Part shown: piece by piece, positions 27,497-43,453 of the stretch
Position numbering within the stretch: position 1 is the stretch's first letter
Layout of the letters: every line of letters begins with the position of its first letter
Source of the DNA: a bacterium
GTDB lineage: Bacteria; Bacteroidota; Ignavibacteria; SZUA-365
DNA length: 64,000 nucleotides
Direction: 5' to 3'
Assembly: GCA_020444325.1 (NCBI GenBank)
Contig: JAHLLD010000011.1
Span: forward strand, 1-64,000
The notes under the pieces: model-generated
Database searches by the model: none
What the model was told of the DNA's origin: nothing
Seen by the model: only the letters and a program-made list of their open reading frames with translations
Translations under genes and position numbers: made by a program

Positions 27497-27531
27497 AAAA
27501 AAACCCGTTCCGCTGACAGAAGCGGAACGGG
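27497..27531 (-). terminator. Intrinsic terminator of rubrerythrin gene
   Basis: An 11-bp stem (CCCGTTCCGCT / AGCGGAACGGG, 27504-27531) followed on the minus strand by seven T residues. Confidence 0.95.
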
Positions 27532-27553: not shown

Positions 27554-28051
27554 TCAGACCTGGACGAACTTCTCGCCTTTCAGTCCGCAGGTGGGACAAT
27601 TATCCGGTGCGGTACCGAATTCGATGTGTCCGCAGACGGGACAGAGGTAGAACTCTGTGACTTCGAGATCTTTTCCCTGCTCCGCGGCTTCCAGCGCCAG
27701 CGAATACAGTTTCGCATGCACGGCCTCTGCCGTCAGCGCATACTTGAACATGGTCTTCGCGCGATGTCCCTCGCTCTCAGCCTGCTCGAGCATCGGGGGA
27801 TACATGGTCTCAAATTCAAACGTCTCGCCACCGATGGCTGCCTTGAGGTTGTCGGCTGTCGTGCCGATGCCCTCGAGCGAACCGAAATGTCCTTCGGCAT
27901 GGATGCGCTCCGCTTCCGCTGTCGTACGGAACAAGCGGGCGATATTCGGATACCCGTCTTTCTCGGCTTTCTTTGCGAATGCACGGTATTTCTGATTCGC
28001 CTGGCTCTCGCCTGCGAATGCTTCCTGCAGATGATCTTTTGTGCTGGCCAT
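27554..28051 (-). CDS. rbr: Rubrerythrin
   Basis: Non-haem diiron peroxidase that detoxifies H2O2 in anaerobes and microaerophiles. 165 residues: a four-helix ferritin-like domain with ExxxxxN-type and ExxH iron ligands (AFAGESQANQKY, AEAERIHAEGH, LTAEAVHAKLY) and a C-terminal rubredoxin domain with two CxxC pairs (LCPVCGH, NCPTCGL). Single gene with its own terminator. Consistent with the hydrogenase and cytochrome context. Confidence 0.95.
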   Translation of the reverse strand: MASTKDHLQEAFAGESQANQKYRAFAKKAEKDGYPNIARLFRTTAEAERIHAEGHFGSLEGIGTTADNLKAAIGGETFEFETMYPPMLEQAESEGHRAKTMFKYALTAEAVHAKLYSLALEAAEQGKDLEVTEFYLCPVCGHIEFGTAPDNCPTCGLKGEKFVQV

Positions 28052-30022: not shown

Positions 30023-31369
30023 TCACGGGAGCGGCAGCTTCCCGAGCAAGGCGGAAAAGGCCTTATCCCGGCGTGAGAAATCGAATCGTGCTCGTTCCTG
30101 TCGGAGGAAATCCCCGATCTGCGTGATTCCGGGATTTCCGGGACTGCCGAGGTGCGTCGATGGGACAGCAGCTTCTGCTGTAAAACTTCCATCATCCAGT
30201 TCCACGCCGACCTGGCGGTAGGCTTCCCGAAACGGTGTACCGGCTTCCACCCTGCGTTGAATCTCGTCGACTGAAAATATGACGTCGTAGCGGCGGTCTT
30301 CAAGGATGTCGCTCTGTGCTTCGATGTGCGCCGTGGCGTGCTGTGCGATGGCAAGGCAGCGCTGCAGGCGCGTCAACGCGGGAAGCATAAGCGATTTGCA
30401 CAGCTGGAAGTCACGGTGATAGCCTGACGTCAGGTTCGTGGCAAGCCCGCTGACATTCCCGGGAAGTGATTGCAGCAGGTTGCAATGCGCGCGGATCAAC
30501 TCGAAGACGTCGGGATTATGTTTGTGCGGCATGATGCTCGATCCGGTGGTGATCTCGGGATGCAGGCGGATGAAACGGTAATTATCGGACGCATACATGC
30601 AGACATCAGCGGCGAAGCGTCCCAGCGCTGTCGCAACGACGGCAAGTGCATTCGCCACTGCGAGGTCCGTCGACACTCTCCCCATTTGCGCCTGCACCGC
30701 GCTGACATGCATACCGGAAAATCCGAGCAGTTCCGTTGTGCGCTCACGGTCGATGGGAAAAGATGTTCCAAACCCGGCGGCGGATCCGAGGGGATTGCGA
30801 TCCGCAACACGGTAGGCTGTCTGCAACGGAAGCAGCGCCTCCGCCAGTGCCTCTGCATGTGCGGAAAACCATTGACCGAACGAAGACGGCATGGCAGCCT
30901 GACCGTGCGTATACCCCGGCAGCAGTAAATTCAGATTCTCTTCAGCACGCCCGAGCAACGTCTTACTGAATTGCGTGACCTGTTCGACGATGTCCCGCAG
31001 CCTGTCCCTGTAAAGCAGCTTGATGTCGACGAGTACCTGGTCATTCCTGGACCGGGCCGTATGCAGCCGTTTCCCGGCATCACCGCACATCCGTGTAAGT
31101 TCAAACTCCACCTGACTGTGGATATCCTCCATGCCTTCTTCCATGCTGAACGTGCCGTTGATGATGCGTTCATATATCTCACGCAGTCCATTGTCAAGCG
31201 CCTGCCAGTCGTCCAGCGGCAGCAGTCCACGTTCATGCAGCATGCGAGCATGCGCCAGCGATGCGATGACATCGTACGAAGCAAGCTGCATGTCGTACAG
31301 CGGATCATCACCGACGGTAAAGTCGTGTACCAGGGCATCCATTTTCATTCCCTTGTCCCATAATTTCAT
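30023..31369 (-). CDS. argH: Argininosuccinate lyase
   Basis: Last step of arginine synthesis: argininosuccinate to arginine and fumarate. 448 residues. Fumarase/aspartase superfamily marks are visible: TARSRNDQV, LPGYTHGQAAMPSSFGQW and the signature GSSIMPHKHNPD with the catalytic Ser in the flexible loop. Last gene of the arginine operon; its ATG overlaps the argE stop codon by four bases (ATGA). Confidence 0.95.
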   Translation of the reverse strand: MKLWDKGMKMDALVHDFTVGDDPLYDMQLASYDVIASLAHARMLHERGLLPLDDWQALDNGLREIYERIINGTFSMEEGMEDIHSQVEFELTRMCGDAGKRLHTARSRNDQVLVDIKLLYRDRLRDIVEQVTQFSKTLLGRAEENLNLLLPGYTHGQAAMPSSFGQWFSAHAEALAEALLPLQTAYRVADRNPLGSAAGFGTSFPIDRERTTELLGFSGMHVSAVQAQMGRVSTDLAVANALAVVATALGRFAADVCMYASDNYRFIRLHPEITTGSSIMPHKHNPDVFELIRAHCNLLQSLPGNVSGLATNLTSGYHRDFQLCKSLMLPALTRLQRCLAIAQHATAHIEAQSDILEDRRYDVIFSVDEIQRRVEAGTPFREAYRQVGVELDDGSFTAEAAVPSTHLGSPGNPGITQIGDFLRQERARFDFSRRDKAFSALLGKLPLP

Positions 31370-32442
31370 TGCATGATCTCCGCATATTCATCCAGTAATC
31401 GCAGGTAGGTTTCGATGCCGTTTTCCAGTTCATCCGCAGTCACGAATTCGTCTGCGGTGTGCGAACGGGAAGAACGGCCGGGACCCAGTTTGACGGAAGG
31501 GACCGAGAGCAGGGCCTGGTCTGACATCGTGGGTGACGCATAGGTTTCGATGCCGCAGCGTTGGGCGGCAAGGACAACAGGATGATCGAGACTGATCGCG
31601 GAGGGACGCAGGCGGGTCGACCGCGGGACGACATCAGCGTCAACGTGCGACCGGATGATGTCGAGCAGTTCCTCATGCGTGTAGGCATCGGTGACACGCA
31701 CATCCACCACATACGTACAACGGTCCGGAATGACGTTGTGCTGCGTTCCCGCGTTGATCTGCGTGACGGACATCAGGATGTCGCCAAGCGCAGGTGAGGA
31801 TTTCTCAAACTCGTATTCCTGAAACCACCGCACCTGCTCCAGCGCAAGGGTGATGGCGTTCGTCCCATCTCCCCGTCCCGCATGTCCCGAAATCCCGTGC
31901 GCGGTGCAATCGAGCACCATCAGTCCCCGCTCCGCAATCGCCATGCGCAGTGAGGTCGGTTCACCGACGATGGCAAGATCGACGGGCGGCAGCTCATCCT
32001 GAAGCAGTCGTATGCCTCCCTCACCCGCTATCTCTTCTTCGGCGGTGAGCGCAAGGATGAGGTTGAAAGGCAGCATACGCTGCTGCAGGGCATCAAAAGC
32101 GACGCTCATGCAGGCAAGGGATGCGCCGGCGTCATTGCTTCCGAGTCCGCACAGCTTCCCATCGGAATAGAACGGCGCGAAAGGATTCTCGGTCCAGGTG
32201 GAAACAGGGCGCACGGTGTCATGATGGGAACACAACATGACGGTGGGACGCGAGGCATCGAAGTCCTCGCGTTTCACCCAGATGTTGTTTCCCTTCCTGC
32301 GTGGGGTGTGTCCTTTCGCAGCGAGCCATGTTTCCAATATGTCCGCGGTGCCCTGCTCCTCCCGGCTGAATGACGGAATGCGGATGAGATCGCAGAGCAG
32401 CTCAAAGGCATCGCCGAATCGAGTCCCGTACTTTGCCCTCAT
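31366..32442 (-). CDS. argE: M20-family deacylase, probable N-acetylornithine or acylcitrulline deacylase (ArgE-like)
   Basis: 358 residues, zinc-dependent M20 hydrolase. Metal ligands appear as MLCSHHDTV, GSNDAGASLA, TAEEEIAGEGG, AIVGEPTS and a late His in SRSHTADEF. In Bacteroidota-type arginine synthesis the carbamoyl transferase acts on acyl-ornithine, so this enzyme probably frees citrulline from N-acylcitrulline. ATG 32442 has GGGAGG upstream and overlaps argB by four bases, against a longer upstream reading. Confidence 0.85.
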   Translation of the reverse strand: MRAKYGTRFGDAFELLCDLIRIPSFSREEQGTADILETWLAAKGHTPRRKGNNIWVKREDFDASRPTVMLCSHHDTVRPVSTWTENPFAPFYSDGKLCGLGSNDAGASLACMSVAFDALQQRMLPFNLILALTAEEEIAGEGGIRLLQDELPPVDLAIVGEPTSLRMAIAERGLMVLDCTAHGISGHAGRGDGTNAITLALEQVRWFQEYEFEKSSPALGDILMSVTQINAGTQHNVIPDRCTYVVDVRVTDAYTHEELLDIIRSHVDADVVPRSTRLRPSAISLDHPVVLAAQRCGIETYASPTMSDQALLSVPSVKLGPGRSSRSHTADEFVTADELENGIETYLRLLDEYAEIMQ

Positions 32443-33257
32443 ATTGATGCCACCTCCCTCCGTTGCGCCGATGTACGTACCTGTGTCCAATTTCCTTCCC
32501 CTCCCTGTGCCGCTGCGGCAATGTCCCCGGCAGCACAAAGCACAACGCGTGAAACGCCCCGTGTACTGGCAGACAACGCAGCTTGCACCTTGGGGATCAT
32601 TCCGCCATTGATATACCCGGAGTTGATGCCGTGCTGCAGCATGTCGCGGTCAATCACCGGCAAGGTGTGCTGCTTTGCATCCTGGACGCCCGGACGATCG
32701 AGAGCCAGCAGCAGCTGCGTCGTTGCGTGCTCAGCGCTGGCAGTAGCGACAGCTGCAGCGATGGAATCTGCGTTCGTATTCAGCAGCTGACCATCGCCGT
32801 CATGTGTCAGTGGCGCGAGTACGGGGAGCAGTTTGGCCTCAAGGAGCTGCATGAGTACGTCGAAGTTGACGGCAAGGATATCCCCGACAAAACCGTAGTC
32901 GATATCGGCTCCGAAGCGCCGCTGCGCAAGAATGCAATTTGCGTCGGCGCCGGTGAGTCCGATCGCAGGTCTGCCCAGGGCAGACAGTTCAGCGACAAGC
33001 CGTTTATTGACCAGTCCCCCGTACACCATGGTCACCACATCGAGCATGTCCTTCCCGGTAACACGTCGTCCATCGACAAGCGTTGATGGGATCCCGGCGC
33101 GATCGCCCCAGGCGGTCGCTTCGCGTCCACCGCCATGGACGAGGATGCAGTGGCCCGGATAGGAGGTAACCGCAGTAAGGACTTCCTTCCTTCCATGTTT
33201 ATGCTCGAGCAGTGCCCCACCCAGCTTGATGACGGTAATTGTTGATGAAGAGTTCAA
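32439..33257 (-). CDS. argB: N-acetylglutamate kinase
   Basis: Second step of the acyl-dependent arginine pathway (N-acetylglutamate phosphorylation). Amino-acid-kinase fold with VIKLGGALLE, LVHGGGREATAWGD, LTGADANCI and NTNADSIAAAVA segments; 272 residues. The best start is TTG 33257: GGAGG lies 7 bases upstream and the codon overlaps the argF' stop (TTGA). An ATG at 33302 would force a 49-base overlap. Transcription-translation coupling runs through the operon. Confidence 0.9.
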   Translation of the reverse strand: MNSSSTITVIKLGGALLEHKHGRKEVLTAVTSYPGHCILVHGGGREATAWGDRAGIPSTLVDGRRVTGKDMLDVVTMVYGGLVNKRLVAELSALGRPAIGLTGADANCILAQRRFGADIDYGFVGDILAVNFDVLMQLLEAKLLPVLAPLTHDGDGQLLNTNADSIAAAVATASAEHATTQLLLALDRPGVQDAKQHTLPVIDRDMLQHGINSGYINGGMIPKVQAALSASTRGVSRVVLCAAGDIAAAAQGGEGNWTQVRTSAQRREVASI

Positions 33258-34204
33258 TTCATCGCCTCCAGCATGCGTTTGAGTACGACCTGGGCTGTCC
33301 ATATCCGGTTTTCTGCCTGAGGGATGACAATGGAGTGATCGCTGTCGAGTACCGCATCCTCAACGACGACGTTGCGGCGTACCGGAAGACAGTGCATGAA
33401 ATGCGCATTCGCGGTGTGCCGCAAATCCTCCGCAGTCACCATCCATTCGCTGTCCCGGGTGAGGACTTCCCCATACGAAGTGTAACTGGACCAGTTTTTC
33501 GCGTACACGAAATCGGCGGACGCCAGCGCTTCTTCCCTGTCATGCAGTACCTGCACTCCTTCCGTGAAGGCGGGATTGAGTTCATAGCCTTCGGGATGGG
33601 TGAGGACCAGATTGACATCCATGTGCCGCATCCATTCAAGAAAGGAGTTGGCGACACTGTGCGGCAGCGCCCGGGGATGCGGGGCCCAGGTGAGAACGAC
33701 CCTTGGTCGTGCGCCGGTACGGAATTCTTCCACCGTGAGACAATCGGCAAAGGATTGCAGCGGATGACGCGTGGCCGATTCCATGCTGATGACGGGTTTC
33801 CCCGAATGACGGATGATGCTGCTCAATATCTCTTCCTTCTCATCGTCATCCCGGTCTTGCAGTCCCGGAAATGCGCGAACGGCAATAATATCACAGTACG
33901 CACCGAGCACTGCGGCCGCTTCACGGATATGCTCGGCAGTGCCACCGTCCATGACGGTCCCGTCCGCAAATTCGAGTTTCCAGGCATCGCCACCGGTATT
34001 GAGGACGATCACATCGAGTCCCAGGTTGCGCGCGGCCCGCTGCATGCTGAGCCTCGTGCGCAGGCTGTTGTTGAAAAACACGAGTCCGAGTGTCTTCCGT
34101 TGTCCGAGCGCGCTATGCGCAAAAGGATCTTCCTTCAGACTGCGAGCTTCCGCGATGGCCGCCTTGAGATCTCCGATATCCGCGACGGAAAGAAATTGCT
34201 TCAT
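33254..34204 (-). CDS. argF': N-acyl-ornithine carbamoyltransferase (Bacteroidota ArgF' type)
   Basis: Transfers a carbamoyl group to N-acetyl- or N-succinyl-ornithine, not to free ornithine. 316 residues. The carbamoyl-phosphate motif FFNNSLRTRLS, SATRHPLQSFAD and HCLPVRRNVVVEDAV match the acyl-type transcarbamylases of Bacteroides and Xanthomonas. Whether the acyl group is acetyl or succinyl depends on one loop position and is not resolved here. It lies between argC and argB. Confidence 0.9.
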   Translation of the reverse strand: MKQFLSVADIGDLKAAIAEARSLKEDPFAHSALGQRKTLGLVFFNNSLRTRLSMQRAARNLGLDVIVLNTGGDAWKLEFADGTVMDGGTAEHIREAAAVLGAYCDIIAVRAFPGLQDRDDDEKEEILSSIIRHSGKPVISMESATRHPLQSFADCLTVEEFRTGARPRVVLTWAPHPRALPHSVANSFLEWMRHMDVNLVLTHPEGYELNPAFTEGVQVLHDREEALASADFVYAKNWSSYTSYGEVLTRDSEWMVTAEDLRHTANAHFMHCLPVRRNVVVEDAVLDSDHSIVIPQAENRIWTAQVVLKRMLEAMN

Positions 34205-34234: not shown

Positions 34235-35215
34235 TTAATACACCGACGCCTTGAGCTGCAGTCCCTCGCCCTCATCGAGGTCCAGCACGAGATTCATATT
34301 CTGCACCGCCTGTCCCGCGGCGCCCTTGAGCAGATTGTCGATTACCGAAGTGACCACGAACATGCCCTCCCGCACCTCGACATGCACCTGACAGTTGTTC
34401 GTGTTGACCACATCCTTCAGCGCAGGCTGTTGTTCACACACCGCAACGAAATGCTCCAAATCGTATGCGCCGTGATAGAGATCCGCGACAGCACTCGCAT
34501 CTCCATCGAAAGCCGTATACGTACAGGCAATAATTCCACGGGTGAAAGGTCCCCGGTACGGGATGAAGAAATGCCGTCCTTCATATCCCGGTACATGCCG
34601 CCGCAGCGTCTCCCGAATCTCACCCAGATGCTGATGTGTCAGCGGTTTGTAGACCTGCATGTTCCCCTGCCGCCAGGAGAAATGTGTCGAGGGGAGTTGC
34701 GCGTTCCCGGCTCCGGTCGATCCCGTCACCGCACTGCTGTGAAGATCGCTGACCGGGAGTCCGGCACGCAGCAGAGGGAGCAATCCCAGCTGAATCGCCG
34801 TCGCAAAGCAGCCCGGGTTGGCAATATGCTTACCCCGCCGCCGTGCGCCGCGAATTTCTTCCCTCCGATCCTCCGTGAGTCCATACACGAAATCTGCTGA
34901 AGCATCGCGCAGACGATGGTCGGCGCTCAAATCGATAACTGTCGTCCCCTGCGAAATCGTCAGTGTCCGAAGCGCCGCGGCACTTTCCCCATGGGGTAGA
35001 GCCAGGAAAAGAATATCCGCTTCCGCCACAGCTTCCCCCGCAAACGGCATGTCCGACAGCGCCGTGAGTCCCTGATGCACACTTCCCAGTTTCTGTCCCG
35101 CCTGCGATGCGCTCACAACCGAAACCACTTCAGTATCGGCGTGCTGCTCGAGCAAACGCAGCAGTTCTCCCGCCACGAGTCCACTGCCCCCCAGAATTGC
35201 GATTTTATATCGCAT
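34235..35215 (-). CDS. argC: N-acetyl-gamma-glutamyl-phosphate reductase
   Basis: Third step of arginine synthesis, NADPH-dependent. 326 residues: Rossmann start (IAILGGSGLVAGELLRLL), the catalytic Cys in ANPGCFATAI and the HQHLGEI segment with the active-site His. It overlaps argG by 11 bases. Confidence 0.95.
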   Translation of the reverse strand: MRYKIAILGGSGLVAGELLRLLEQHADTEVVSVVSASQAGQKLGSVHQGLTALSDMPFAGEAVAEADILFLALPHGESAAALRTLTISQGTTVIDLSADHRLRDASADFVYGLTEDRREEIRGARRRGKHIANPGCFATAIQLGLLPLLRAGLPVSDLHSSAVTGSTGAGNAQLPSTHFSWRQGNMQVYKPLTHQHLGEIRETLRRHVPGYEGRHFFIPYRGPFTRGIIACTYTAFDGDASAVADLYHGAYDLEHFVAVCEQQPALKDVVNTNNCQVHVEVREGMFVVTSVIDNLLKGAAGQAVQNMNLVLDLDEGEGLQLKASVY

Positions 35216-36410
35216 CCGACCCCCGGTGCTTTGTGAAGTACATCATTAACTGATTGGCGTAAATCTTTGAAAAACCACGCACATCTTCTCCATTCCACAA
35301 AGAATTTTCCTCCCCGTACGTCCCGAAGTCGGTAGACAGCAGATCATGATCGGAGCGTATTCCGAGCAGGTCGAATCGATGCGGAGCGAGAAGGATATCG
35401 ACCTCTCCGGTCACATGCCGCTGTGTGCTCAGCAGCAGCGCTTCAATATCACGTGCGGCGGGTTCGAGGAACTGCGCTTCATGGACCAGGCTGCCATAAG
35501 TGAGTGCGACCTGCTCTTTCATCAGCTGCTGCTGCCTGGTCAGCGTGTGTTTCTCGAGCAGACGATGTGCAGCGATGATGACATGCGGCGCCGCGGCAGC
35601 AAATCCCACACGCCCCTTGAGTCCGATAATGGTATCCCCGACATGCATACCTCTGCCGATTCCGTATGGGGCGGCGAGATCTTCGAGCTGACGAATCACG
35701 GAGATTGAATCAGCGGAATGTCCGTCAATGCCGTCCACCTCACCCTGTGTGAAGTGAAGGGTGACCTTGCGTTCATCGATTGCAGTCTGAGGCACGGGGT
35801 AGGCAGTTTCCGGCAGCACTCCGTCGGATTGCAGCGTTTCACGTCCCCCGATGGACGTCCCCCACAATCCGGCATTGATCGAGTACACGGAAGCTGCGGC
35901 ATCCATGTCCACTCCAGCTTCCTGGAGGTATGCGATTTCCTGCTCCCTGGAGAGCGACATATCCCGAACGGGCGTGATAATGCGCGCTTCGGGCAGAATG
36001 ATGCGGAACACGGTATCGAAACGCACCTGGTCATTGCCCGCACCGGTTGAGCCATGGGCGATGGCATCGGCATGCTGATCACGCGCGTAGGCTGCAATGG
36101 CTTCTGCCTGGAACACGCGCTCGGCGCTCACGGACAGTGGATAGCTGTTTCCGCGAAGGACGTTCCCGAACACGAGGAAGCGAATGCAGCGGCTGTAAAA
36201 CTCCTGCGTGCGCTGCAGCGTGACATGTTTTTCCGCACCGAGCAGCAGGGCCTGTTGTTCCATGGCAGCAAGTTCTTCAGCCGTATGCCCCCCGGTATCG
36301 ACAAACACGGTGTGCACGCGATACTGCAGCTGTTTCGACAGGTACATTGCGCAGTAGGAAGTATCGAGTCCCCCGCTGAATGCGAGCACGGCGAGTTTTT
36401 TCTCAGGCAT
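35205..36410 (-). CDS. argG: Argininosuccinate synthase
   Basis: Joins citrulline and aspartate using ATP. 401 residues, with the P-loop-like AFSGGLDTSYC near the start and HGSTGAGNDQVRF for ATP/citrulline binding. Sequence and length fit the Bacteroidota branch. Overlaps the GNAT gene by 8 bases. Confidence 0.95.
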   Translation of the reverse strand: MPEKKLAVLAFSGGLDTSYCAMYLSKQLQYRVHTVFVDTGGHTAEELAAMEQQALLLGAEKHVTLQRTQEFYSRCIRFLVFGNVLRGNSYPLSVSAERVFQAEAIAAYARDQHADAIAHGSTGAGNDQVRFDTVFRIILPEARIITPVRDMSLSREQEIAYLQEAGVDMDAAASVYSINAGLWGTSIGGRETLQSDGVLPETAYPVPQTAIDERKVTLHFTQGEVDGIDGHSADSISVIRQLEDLAAPYGIGRGMHVGDTIIGLKGRVGFAAAAPHVIIAAHRLLEKHTLTRQQQLMKEQVALTYGSLVHEAQFLEPAARDIEALLLSTQRHVTGEVDILLAPHRFDLLGIRSDHDLLSTDFGTYGEENSLWNGEDVRGFSKIYANQLMMYFTKHRGSDAI

Positions 36411-37020
36411 CGAGTCCCTCCTTCTCCATGTTTATCGCAGGGATGGCGACTTCGCTGCGCTGCACTGTCTTCACCGGATCATAGAGCATGCTCGTGCACA
36501 GGCACATGCTGCGTCCCGTTCTCTGGAGAATATCGTAGTTGGGACAGCTTTTACAGCCGTTCCAGAATTCGTCATCATCCGTCAGTTCCGAATACGGTAC
36601 CGGCACATAGCCGAGATCCGTATTGATCTTCATCACTGCATGACTGGTGGTAATGCCGAACAGCCGGGCTTCAGGAAACAGTTCACGCGAAAGCGCGAAC
36701 GCCTGCCGTTTGATGGAACGGGCGAGTCCGCTGTGCCTGAATGCCGGTACGACAATGAGACCGGAATTCGCCACATACTTTTTCCCGCCCCAGGTTTCGA
36801 TATAACAGAAACCGGCGAAGGTCGCAGCAGCCTCCCCTTCATCGAACGCCAGGGCGATGACCGCCTTGCCCTCGCGAATTTTGGCGATGATGTATTCCTC
36901 CGTACGCAGGGCGATGCCCGTGCCGCGTTCCTGTGCTGCGCGCGCGATGGACTCGCAGATGTGAGGTGCCCAGGAAACATGGACTTCCGTTGCTCGTTCT
37001 ATGTTGAGACGTACTGACAT
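36403..37020 (-). CDS. GNAT acetyltransferase, probable glutamate N-acyltransferase of the arginine operon
   Basis: 205 residues, first structural gene of the arginine operon. A GNAT core with the acyl-CoA region NSGLIVVPAFRHSGLARSIKRQA; the C-terminal half is unusual, with a Cys cluster (NGCKSCPNYD, MCLCTSM) that may bind zinc. Genes of this type head arginine operons in Bacteroidota and are thought to replace ArgA (N-acylglutamate synthase); that role is inferred from position. AAGGA precedes the ATG. Confidence 0.8.
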   Translation of the reverse strand: MSVRLNIERATEVHVSWAPHICESIARAAQERGTGIALRTEEYIIAKIREGKAVIALAFDEGEAAATFAGFCYIETWGGKKYVANSGLIVVPAFRHSGLARSIKRQAFALSRELFPEARLFGITTSHAVMKINTDLGYVPVPYSELTDDDEFWNGCKSCPNYDILQRTGRSMCLCTSMLYDPVKTVQRSEVAIPAINMEKEGLDA

Positions 37021-37050
37021 ACCGTATCCTTAAACCTGTAGCGGAATGGG

Positions 37051-37078
37051 GAAAAAAATGCCGCGTATCACACGCGGC
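37051..37078 (-). terminator. Terminator inside the arginine operon leader (attenuator)
   Basis: A 7-bp GC stem (GCCGCGT / ACGCGGC, loop of 5) followed on the minus strand by seven T residues, 31 bases before the first structural gene. Nothing else is encoded upstream on this strand except the leader peptide, so it can only act on the leader transcript. Confidence 0.85.
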
Positions 37079-37117
37079 TGCACAAAATGTTCGGGGGATT
37101 CTAAACGAAGGGGAGAA

Positions 37118-37225
37118 TTACCAGAAACGCATACCGGTGTGGAGAGCGGCGGTTCGTCGTCGCGGAAAAGCAGCACCCGGAATGAGCGCGGAAAATGCGA
37201 AGTATGCGTGTTCAGTATTCAGCAT
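37118..37225 (-). CDS. Putative 35-residue leader peptide with Arg-Arg-Arg
   Basis: A short open frame begins ATG at 37225 and ends TAA at 37118, 40 bases before the terminator stem. It encodes 35 residues with three consecutive Arg codons (CGA CGA CGA at 37162-37154) and one further Arg three codons before the stop. This is the layout of amino-acid attenuators. No clear Shine-Dalgarno sequence precedes it, and I could not find a convincing antiterminator pairing, so translation is unproven. Confidence 0.5.
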   Translation of the reverse strand: MLNTEHAYFAFSALIPGAAFPRRRTAALHTGMRFW

Positions 37226-37375
37226 ATGGTCTAGTGATATTCAACTGGGATAAAGGTAGTCCTAATTACAGATAAAATCCAAATAAAAAATTCATCGGAC
37301 AGGTACACCTTAAGATGATGTAATTTATTTGTAACGCAATGTTCAGGCAGCGCAATGACCTGTGCCGTAGATTAT

Positions 37376-37413
37376 TTCCGTGGGATGCCCCCTTATCGGA
37401 GCATTCCACGGAA
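37376..37413 (+). promoter_or_regulatory. Strong hairpin upstream of the pilin-like operon
   Basis: Thirteen-base arms (TTCCGTGGGATGC and its near-perfect complement, one G-U in RNA) enclose 12 bases. No T-run follows, so it is not a terminator. It lies 60-95 bases upstream of the preferred start of the first gene. Confidence 0.5.
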
Positions 37414-37471
37414 CGTGGCCCGCACGGACTGCGGCGGTTTCATTCATGTACAACAACGACCGGGAATCACC

Positions 37472-37954
37472 ATGGGTGGTGTTCAAATGATGCTCGTACT
37501 GGCGGCGATGACCCTGCTGTCCATCCTGGTACTCTCGATGAACAGGGCGAAGCTCTTTTCAGACGAGCAGCTGTCACAGGCCGAGTACACGATGGCCGCG
37601 ACTGCCGTGGGACAAACCCTGATCAACGACATCGTCAGCAAGGAATACGATGCCGCTACCGTGGGAAAGGATTTCGTGGACGTTTCGCAGTTCACCGCAC
37701 CGCAGTCGCTCGGACATGGCTCCTGGGAAAGCTATCCCAATTTCAATGATGTGGACGATTACAACCGGCTGCGAACCACGGTAAACACACCACGGGCCGG
37801 CAGCTTTGACCTTACTTGCCGTGTGCACTACGTGAATCCGTCCAACCCGGACACTCCCGTGTACGTGCGCACACGCAGCAAACGCATCGAGGTTTCGGTC
37901 AACTCCGCATTCCTCGCCCATCCCGTCACACTCGTTTCCTACAAAAGCTTCTAA
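37472..37954 (+). CDS. Pilin-like envelope protein, operon gene 1
   Basis: About 160 residues from the ATG at 37472. A hydrophobic N-terminal helix (MMLVLAAMTLLSILVLSM) is followed by a helical then beta-rich region, as in type IV pilin-like proteins. If a longer start at 37385 is used, the segment PG-ITMGG before the helix resembles a prepilin cleavage site without the usual Glu at +5. The start therefore stays uncertain. The next gene starts 10 bases downstream; the three genes look like one operon for a surface or secretion structure. Confidence 0.65.
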   Translation: MGGVQMMLVLAAMTLLSILVLSMNRAKLFSDEQLSQAEYTMAATAVGQTLINDIVSKEYDAATVGKDFVDVSQFTAPQSLGHGSWESYPNFNDVDDYNRLRTTVNTPRAGSFDLTCRVHYVNPSNPDTPVYVRTRSKRIEVSVNSAFLAHPVTLVSYKSF

Positions 37955-43093: not shown

Positions 43094-43453
43094 GGGGATG
43101 CAATGGTTTCGACGGGTTGTCGGGATTATGCAAACGCGTTCCGTGCCTGGTGTAAGCACGTTAATCTTGGACCATTTGGTATAATTGCCAACTACGATTA
43201 CGCACTGGCCGCTTAATTGACGGTCACGTCCCCCGGAGACCCGCCTGTTGGCCAAAGGGTAGGACGACGCCAATAACAGGATAGGCACCTCTAGCGTTCG
43301 AGGCGAGGGCCGAAACACTTCTTCGAACTAGCTTCATCGCACGTCCTGTCTGTCGGGCAGCGACGAAGCGAACCATCAAAAGACAGACTATGAGCGTAGT
43401 AAGTTGCAGGTTCTGCTTCTCGGACGGGGGTTCGATTCCCCCCATCTCCACCA
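43094..43453 (+). ncRNA. ssrA: Transfer-messenger RNA (tmRNA)
   Basis: 360 bases. The 5' end GGGGATGCAATGGTTTCGAC and the 3' end GGTTCGATTCCCCCCATCTC plus ACCA are diagnostic; GGGGATG pairs with CATCTCC as the acceptor stem, and CCA is encoded. The tag frame reads Ala-Asn-Tyr-Asp-Tyr-Ala-Leu-Ala-Ala then TAA (43187-43216), with TAATT just before the resume codon as expected. tmRNA with SmpB frees stalled ribosomes and tags the product for proteolysis. Confidence 0.97.

Follow-up and report, generated by a model that had tools for sequence, protein, structure and literature searches.

How is arginine biosynthesis controlled in a bacterium whose genome yields no trace of the usual regulator? 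Arginine operons are commonly regulated by ArgR, the C-terminal domain of which (PF02863) was absent from the genome studied here (G000), rated 100% complete. The question is raised by a 64,000-nt stretch of this genome (the window), which carries an operon with the order argA-like-argG-argC-argF'-argB-argE-argH on its minus strand (37020 to 30023). The genes were assigned as follows.

36403 to 37020, minus strand: first gene, argA-like acyltransferase (weak similarity to GNAT structures; role suggested by its place beside argG)
35205 to 36410, minus strand: argG, argininosuccinate synthase (PF00764 and PF20979)
34235 to 35215, minus strand: argC (TIGR01850, above cut-off)
33254 to 34204, minus strand: argF', N-acyl-ornithine carbamoyltransferase (NF003384, above cut-off; nearest solved chains, 1js1, 2g7m, and 2fg6)
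32439 to 33302, minus strand: argB (TIGR00761, above cut-off)
31366 to 32454, minus strand: ArgE/DapE-type deacylase, start approximate (PF01546 and PF07687; best NCBIfam model, TIGR01910, below its cut-off)
30023 to 31369, minus strand: argH (TIGR00838, above cut-off)

The first gene had no Pfam or NCBIfam match; by its place beside argG, it would resemble the Bacteroidota N-acylglutamate synthase BT3761 (PMC7311316). The argF' product matched 1js1, 2g7m, and 2fg6 at ~390 bits, versus ~199 bits for chains named N-acetylornithine carbamoyltransferase. Because a Bacteroides fragilis enzyme acts on N-succinylornithine (PMC7311316), the pathway encoded here possibly uses succinylated intermediates. 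Regarding the four other genomes of the same genus (G001 to G004), none contained the first gene or argH above the cut-off. The operon may have been lost in these four genomes or gained in the window's genome, and the four may be arginine auxotrophs.

The leader upstream of the first gene offers a candidate answer. The first-pass annotation had described a 35-codon minus-strand frame with three consecutive CGA codons and a fourth Arg codon close before the stop, followed ~40 bases later by a GC-rich hairpin with seven T residues. The frame lies exactly at 37225 to 37118 (minus strand; 35 codons plus stop) and the hairpin 39 nt past its stop codon. The leader contains the following elements.

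37251 to 37282, minus strand: putative promoter of the Bacteroidota type, recognized by motif, i.e., TTG (37282 to 37280), a 21-nt spacer, and TACCTTTA (37258 to 37251)
37118 to 37225, minus strand: ORF of a putative leader peptide, translated as MLNTEHAYFAFSALIPGAAFPRRRTAALHTGMRFW followed by the stop (length and Arg block kept in L002 to L004)
37154 to 37162, minus strand: candidate sensing codons CGA-CGA-CGA, Arg22 to Arg24 of the ORF (CGA, a minority codon)
37052 to 37078, minus strand: predicted intrinsic terminator from terminator scans, composed of a hairpin (37078 to 37060; 90.6% of cells in its columns kept in relatives) and a T tract (37058 to 37052)

The fourth Arg codon is CGT (37129 to 37127). 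Across 12 genes of the window, CGA accounts for only 19 of 288 Arg codons, yet for all 3 of the sensing codons. This preference is not phylum-wide because Flavobacteriaceae leaders mostly use CGY. The lack of a clear ribosome binding site had been listed as a weak point of the peptide; indeed there is no Shine-Dalgarno site, but this carries little weight because such sites are often absent in Bacteroidota.

Taken alone, the ORF is within chance. Equally dense Arg clusters appeared in 14 to 19% of shuffles of this GC-rich leader, and CGACGACGA is not rare in the window (two occurrences versus 1.3 expected). These figures are what one would expect if the arrangement were a coincidence, i.e., a constitutive leader terminator next to an untranslated chance ORF. 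Because the ORF alone is not significant, the case has to be made by conservation and geometry.

We therefore turn to the relatives, among which the first gene was present in 17 of 100 sampled genomes (the window's own counted). Three members of the same family (L002, L003, and L004) have a leader peptide of exactly 35 aa with RR(R) at codons 23 to 25 (MTHVRAFEQCRILSLLRRSSFLRRRALPVRHDMRR, MAHLRTYGQRCISSLLRILAFQRRTTAAFRAGMRR, and MKYFRSYGQRCILSFLRSLPFQRRTTAAICAGMRR). TTG-N21-TAnnTTTA occurs at the same place in each of the three, making four leaders with the window's own, and the terminator region aligns alongside this promoter motif. The comparison of related leaders that had been proposed as a check thus found the 35-aa peptide, the Arg block, and the terminator region conserved. 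A codon-position test was weak; second-position changes were fewer among L002, L003, and L004 only.

Farther away, CGACGACGA is invariant in ten leaders of family f16, and four leaders of family f17 all carry the second block, CGACGACCCTGCC, unchanged. Arg-rich leaders were found in f16, f17, f21, f30, and other Bacteroidota families, and more distant members of the class still have an Arg block ahead of the first gene. We scanned ORFs ending 50 to 200 nt before the first gene in 66 genera of the phylum; clustered Arg was enriched (p ≤ 0.05) in 23 genera, with ~3 expected. Arg was the only one of the 20 amino acids that was strongly enriched, followed by Ala (8 of 66 genera) and Pro (6 of 66). 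The Arg-cluster scan did not detect an Arg leader in several families that have the first gene (e.g., f24, f54, and f64). Conservation at the same place in relatives raises the leader ORF above chance. With such conservation in many families, the strong enrichment of Arg, and the spacing from Arg block to antiterminator in eight leaders (see below), coincidence becomes a very improbable explanation.

The terminator hairpin reads GCCGCGTG-TGA-TACGCGGC and is followed by a single A, the seven T residues, and then 31 nt up to the first-gene ATG at 37020. Among terminator-like sites in a scan of 18 kb, it ranked first. Under a strict rule (at least seven perfect pairs, at least six of them GC, and at least seven T in eight positions), four sites were found in the 64-kb window, including the leader hairpin, versus 0.0 in 40 Markov shuffles. 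The other three sites are at 27531, 18688, and 7813 (minus strand); the one at 27531 lies directly past the end of a rubrerythrin-like ORF (27554 to 28051). We rejected the possibility that the leader hairpin terminates an upstream gene: the neighboring ORF (37355 to 37954) is divergent, and the T tract is present on the minus strand only. Because that ORF is divergent, the terminator sits in a leader with no gene upstream of it, as the first-pass annotation had maintained.

Not all relatives share this strength. L002 has no T tract and only a weak terminator, and many Flavobacteriaceae leaders contain no clear intrinsic terminator; therefore, some relatives must work differently. Such leaders would fit control exerted mainly after transcription or through Rho, with leader translation exposing or hiding the first-gene start or Rho sites and the hairpin being secondary; the orf34 leader of speF operates through Rho and mRNA decay (PMC6386406). 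In the window, however, the hairpin with its T tract belongs to the four strongest intrinsic terminators found over the 64 kb, and the partner of the antiterminator described next is precisely the 5' arm of this hairpin, making control of this kind unlikely here.

Regarding the antiterminator, none had been obvious at first pass. We found a good candidate, in which CACACCGGT within the ORF pairs with the 5' arm of the terminator. Folding the leader for alternative structures, another check that had been suggested, thus allows a mutually exclusive terminator and antiterminator to be drawn from the following regions.

37202 to 37209, minus strand: region 1 (ACGCATAC), from the minimum-energy leader fold, able to pair with 37134 to 37127 (GTATGCGT) and thereby to occupy part of region 2; putative role
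37133 to 37141, minus strand: region 2 (CACACCGGT, codons 29 to 31), candidate 5' strand of the antiterminator, by predicted pairing with region 3
37069 to 37078, minus strand: region 3, predicted 3' strand of the antiterminator, including the 5' arm of the terminator (pairs kept in L001 to L004)

Region 2 starts five codons past the last CGA, where a ribosome stalled on that codon would have its leading edge. The same geometry recurs in eight leaders, in which region 2 begins 4.7 to 6 codons past the last Arg of the block, matching the leading-edge distance of a stalled ribosome. The antiterminator and the terminator each keep 90.6% of their pairs in L001 to L004, versus 56% or less after sliding of the partner; covariation of the two structures was not above that of shuffles with only these four sequences.

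To model the ribosome, we masked the RNA as far as 11 to 14 nt beyond the A-site codon's first base. In the window, the predicted pairing probability of regions 2 and 3 was 0.98 with the A-site at Arg22 to Arg24 and 0.00 from codon 28 on. The equilibrium probability of the terminator was 0.01 at Arg22, 0.59 at Arg23 and Arg24, and at least 0.95 from Thr25. Because the terminator still reaches 0.59 at Arg23 and Arg24, the argument for the window at these codons relies on co-transcriptional order. A similar terminator switch was predicted near the respective Arg blocks of L002, L003, L014, and L176. The contrast before and after the block was reached by the following numbers of shuffles (out of 200 each: L001, 6; L002, 7; L003, 16; L004, 19; L014, 0; L175, 6; L173, 30; L176, 0).

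When the RNA was cut just past region 3, mimicking the transcript while the polymerase is still transcribing, all eight leaders had a predicted antiterminator probability of 0.75 to 0.99 at the Arg block, which dropped to ~0 within 3 to 5 codons beyond it. L173 and L175 had almost no switch at equilibrium because their terminators are very strong; the antiterminator was clear in their truncated transcripts. In most related leaders, the switch point is predicted to coincide with the Arg block. In the unoccupied leader of the window, positions 37209 to 37202 are predicted to form a hairpin with 37134 to 37127.

We conclude that this leader most probably works by ribosome-mediated transcription attenuation, with charged tRNA-Arg as the signal sensed and the arginine biosynthesis operon as the target (probability, roughly 0.85). 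The conclusion draws on the ORF, the terminator, the promoter motif, their conservation, and predicted pairings that depend on ribosome position. The genes downstream (argG, argC, argF', argB, the deacylase gene, and argH) make the very amino acid that would be sensed. Attenuation of the arginine operon by an Arg leader peptide, as originally suggested, is supported by conservation, by the exclusive structures, and by the rare co-occurrence with ArgR (see below). What needs replacing is the term "translational attenuation," since the process would be premature termination, i.e., ribosome-mediated transcription attenuation.

In operation, we infer that the leader is translated, that transcription does end at the hairpin, and that arginine governs the outcome. 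Transcription would start ~20 nt upstream of the leader ATG, with the ribosome trailing RNA polymerase. Given ample arginine, the ribosome would pass CGA-CGA-CGA and cover region 2 on its way to the stop codon; with region 2 covered, the terminator would form and transcription would end before the operon. When arginine is short, the ribosome would stall with a CGA codon in its A-site and leave region 2 free just past its leading edge. Region 2 could then pair with region 3 before the 3' arm of the terminator is made, and transcription would continue. Without translation, region 1 would pair into region 2, and the terminator would form.

Could another sensor of arginine serve this operon? Candidates are an ArgR operator, a T-box, or a riboswitch, and other families of this class do have ArgR. 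We rejected an ArgR operator, since the genome contains no ArgR, and a T-box or known riboswitch, since the leader region (36900 to 37500) had no Rfam match at E ≤ 5. No Rfam match at E ≤ 1 was obtained in the leaders of seven relatives either. The only Rfam match within the window was a tmRNA gene (43094 to 43453, plus strand; tag, ANYDYALAA). In a first sample of relatives, PF02863 was found in 0 of 17 genomes with the first gene and in 37 of 83 others. In a sample from across the phylum, 6 of the 170 genomes that have the first gene also have ArgR, versus 119 of the 223 that lack this gene; these counts follow clades and are not independent events. Among the six exceptions, the match in G416 (25 bits) contains an internal stop codon, and those in G564, G570, G645, and G667 lie directly upstream of the first gene; G643 is the sixth. 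A different sensor of these types is exceedingly improbable.

Arrest by the nascent peptide also deserves consideration. Here, the Arg-rich peptide itself would stall the ribosome together with an effector in the exit tunnel (free arginine, ornithine, or some other molecule), as with the fungal AAP or the enterobacterial SpeFL, and uncharged tRNA-Arg would play no part. Arg-sensing leader peptides are known (orf34/speF; PMC6386406), and the peptide is partly conserved outside its Arg codons in L001 to L004 (F-x-RRx-T-A-A ... GMR). Between families, however, the sequences outside the Arg block diverge strongly, while the block itself and its spacing from region 2 are retained. Moreover, stalling at the Arg block by excess arginine would cause antitermination in the presence of arginine, the wrong sign for a biosynthesis operon. 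We found no Pfam match to the SpeFL/orf34 family (DUF2618) in six leaders at E ≤ 1 and rejected a SpeFL-type peptide on this ground; the leader peptide had no PHROG match. Taken together, these points make peptide arrest distinctly unlikely.

The attenuator that we favor resembles those of trp, his, leu, ilv, thr, and phe in having a short leader ORF in which several codons for the pathway's product stand in a row. It further shares with the classical cases, here as predicted from sequence, the mutually exclusive antiterminator and terminator, a 5' antiterminator strand located where the stalled ribosome has its leading edge, and the terminator before the first gene. It differs from them in that arginine is sensed, the host is a member of the Bacteroidota (Kapaibacterium relatives), the codon is the minority codon CGA, and there is no Shine-Dalgarno site. 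ArgR-controlled operons, which serve the same pathway and occur in some relatives (e.g., f4, f11, f12, and f59), differ in that the window's genome has no ArgR C-terminal domain and that ArgR and the first gene rarely share a genome.

In the literature searched, the bacterial arginine-sensing leaders were orf34/speF and rbfL, whose targets and mechanisms both differ from those proposed here. The Salmonella orf34 (SpeFL) leader of speF likewise has consecutive Arg codons among its 34 codons and senses arginine; in contrast, its target is an ornithine decarboxylase, it acts through Rho, ribosome binding site occlusion, and RNase G, and it has no sequence relation to the present leader (PMC6386406). 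Staphylococcus aureus rbfL likewise uses leader ORF Arg codons to sense arginine limitation; its target is a biofilm regulator, whose ribosome binding site is covered to control translation initiation, with no termination before an arginine operon (PMC13009471). Within the same phylum, leader-peptide attenuators have been reported upstream of amino acid biosynthesis operons in Flavobacterium psychrophilum, and the main text of that report names no arginine case (PMC9723704). Our search found no Arg-codon attenuator of an arginine biosynthesis operon; an earlier prediction is possible, the 2010 survey cited in PMC4833913 having lain outside the search.

The attenuator is a new amino acid specificity of a known mechanism and, if true, adds arginine to the amino acids sensed by attenuation for their own biosynthesis. 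Its elements are short and directly testable in a reporter, and the repeated minority codon CGA provides a natural test of whether rare isoacceptors sense starvation better.

Leaders of a different build were observed in Flavobacteriaceae (L127, L102, L118, L097, L191, L199, L225, L232, and others). Their Arg leader ends in RRP or RRRP directly before the stop, ~75 to 105 nt upstream of the first gene, and a short hairpin (CCC-GUAA-GGG or similar) holds the stop codon in its loop. A second hairpin follows; its GGUGAGUCC core is near-invariant, and its outer stem shows compensatory changes. This leader RNA had no Rfam match and no obvious terminator; TAGGTGAGTCC occurred once per genome in two genomes, at the Flavobacteriaceae leader only.

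Arg-codon attenuation is apparently widespread in ArgR-less Bacteroidota and would explain how they regulate their arginine operon. The evidence is evenly balanced on the broader proposition that Arg-codon leader peptides are the general regulator of arginine operons in these bacteria, coupled to lineage-specific RNA switches, i.e., an intrinsic terminator with an antiterminator in the present genome and in Kapaibacterium relatives, and the undescribed RNA with the stop codon in the loop in Flavobacteriaceae.

Two further arrangements were observed in individual leaders. In L064, L108, L223, L224, L227, L228, and L231, the first gene is preceded at ~155 to 230 nt by a second Arg-rich ORF (ending in RRRF, RRRR, or LLRRR before the stop), which lies either beside the RRP leader or ahead of it; these are possible tandem leaders. 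L216, L217, and L219 (genus g203), which have no RRP leader, share a conserved 28-aa ORF (MNK.S.H.TSLSRTNRP.TSPEVRMLSL) ending ~235 nt upstream of the first gene.
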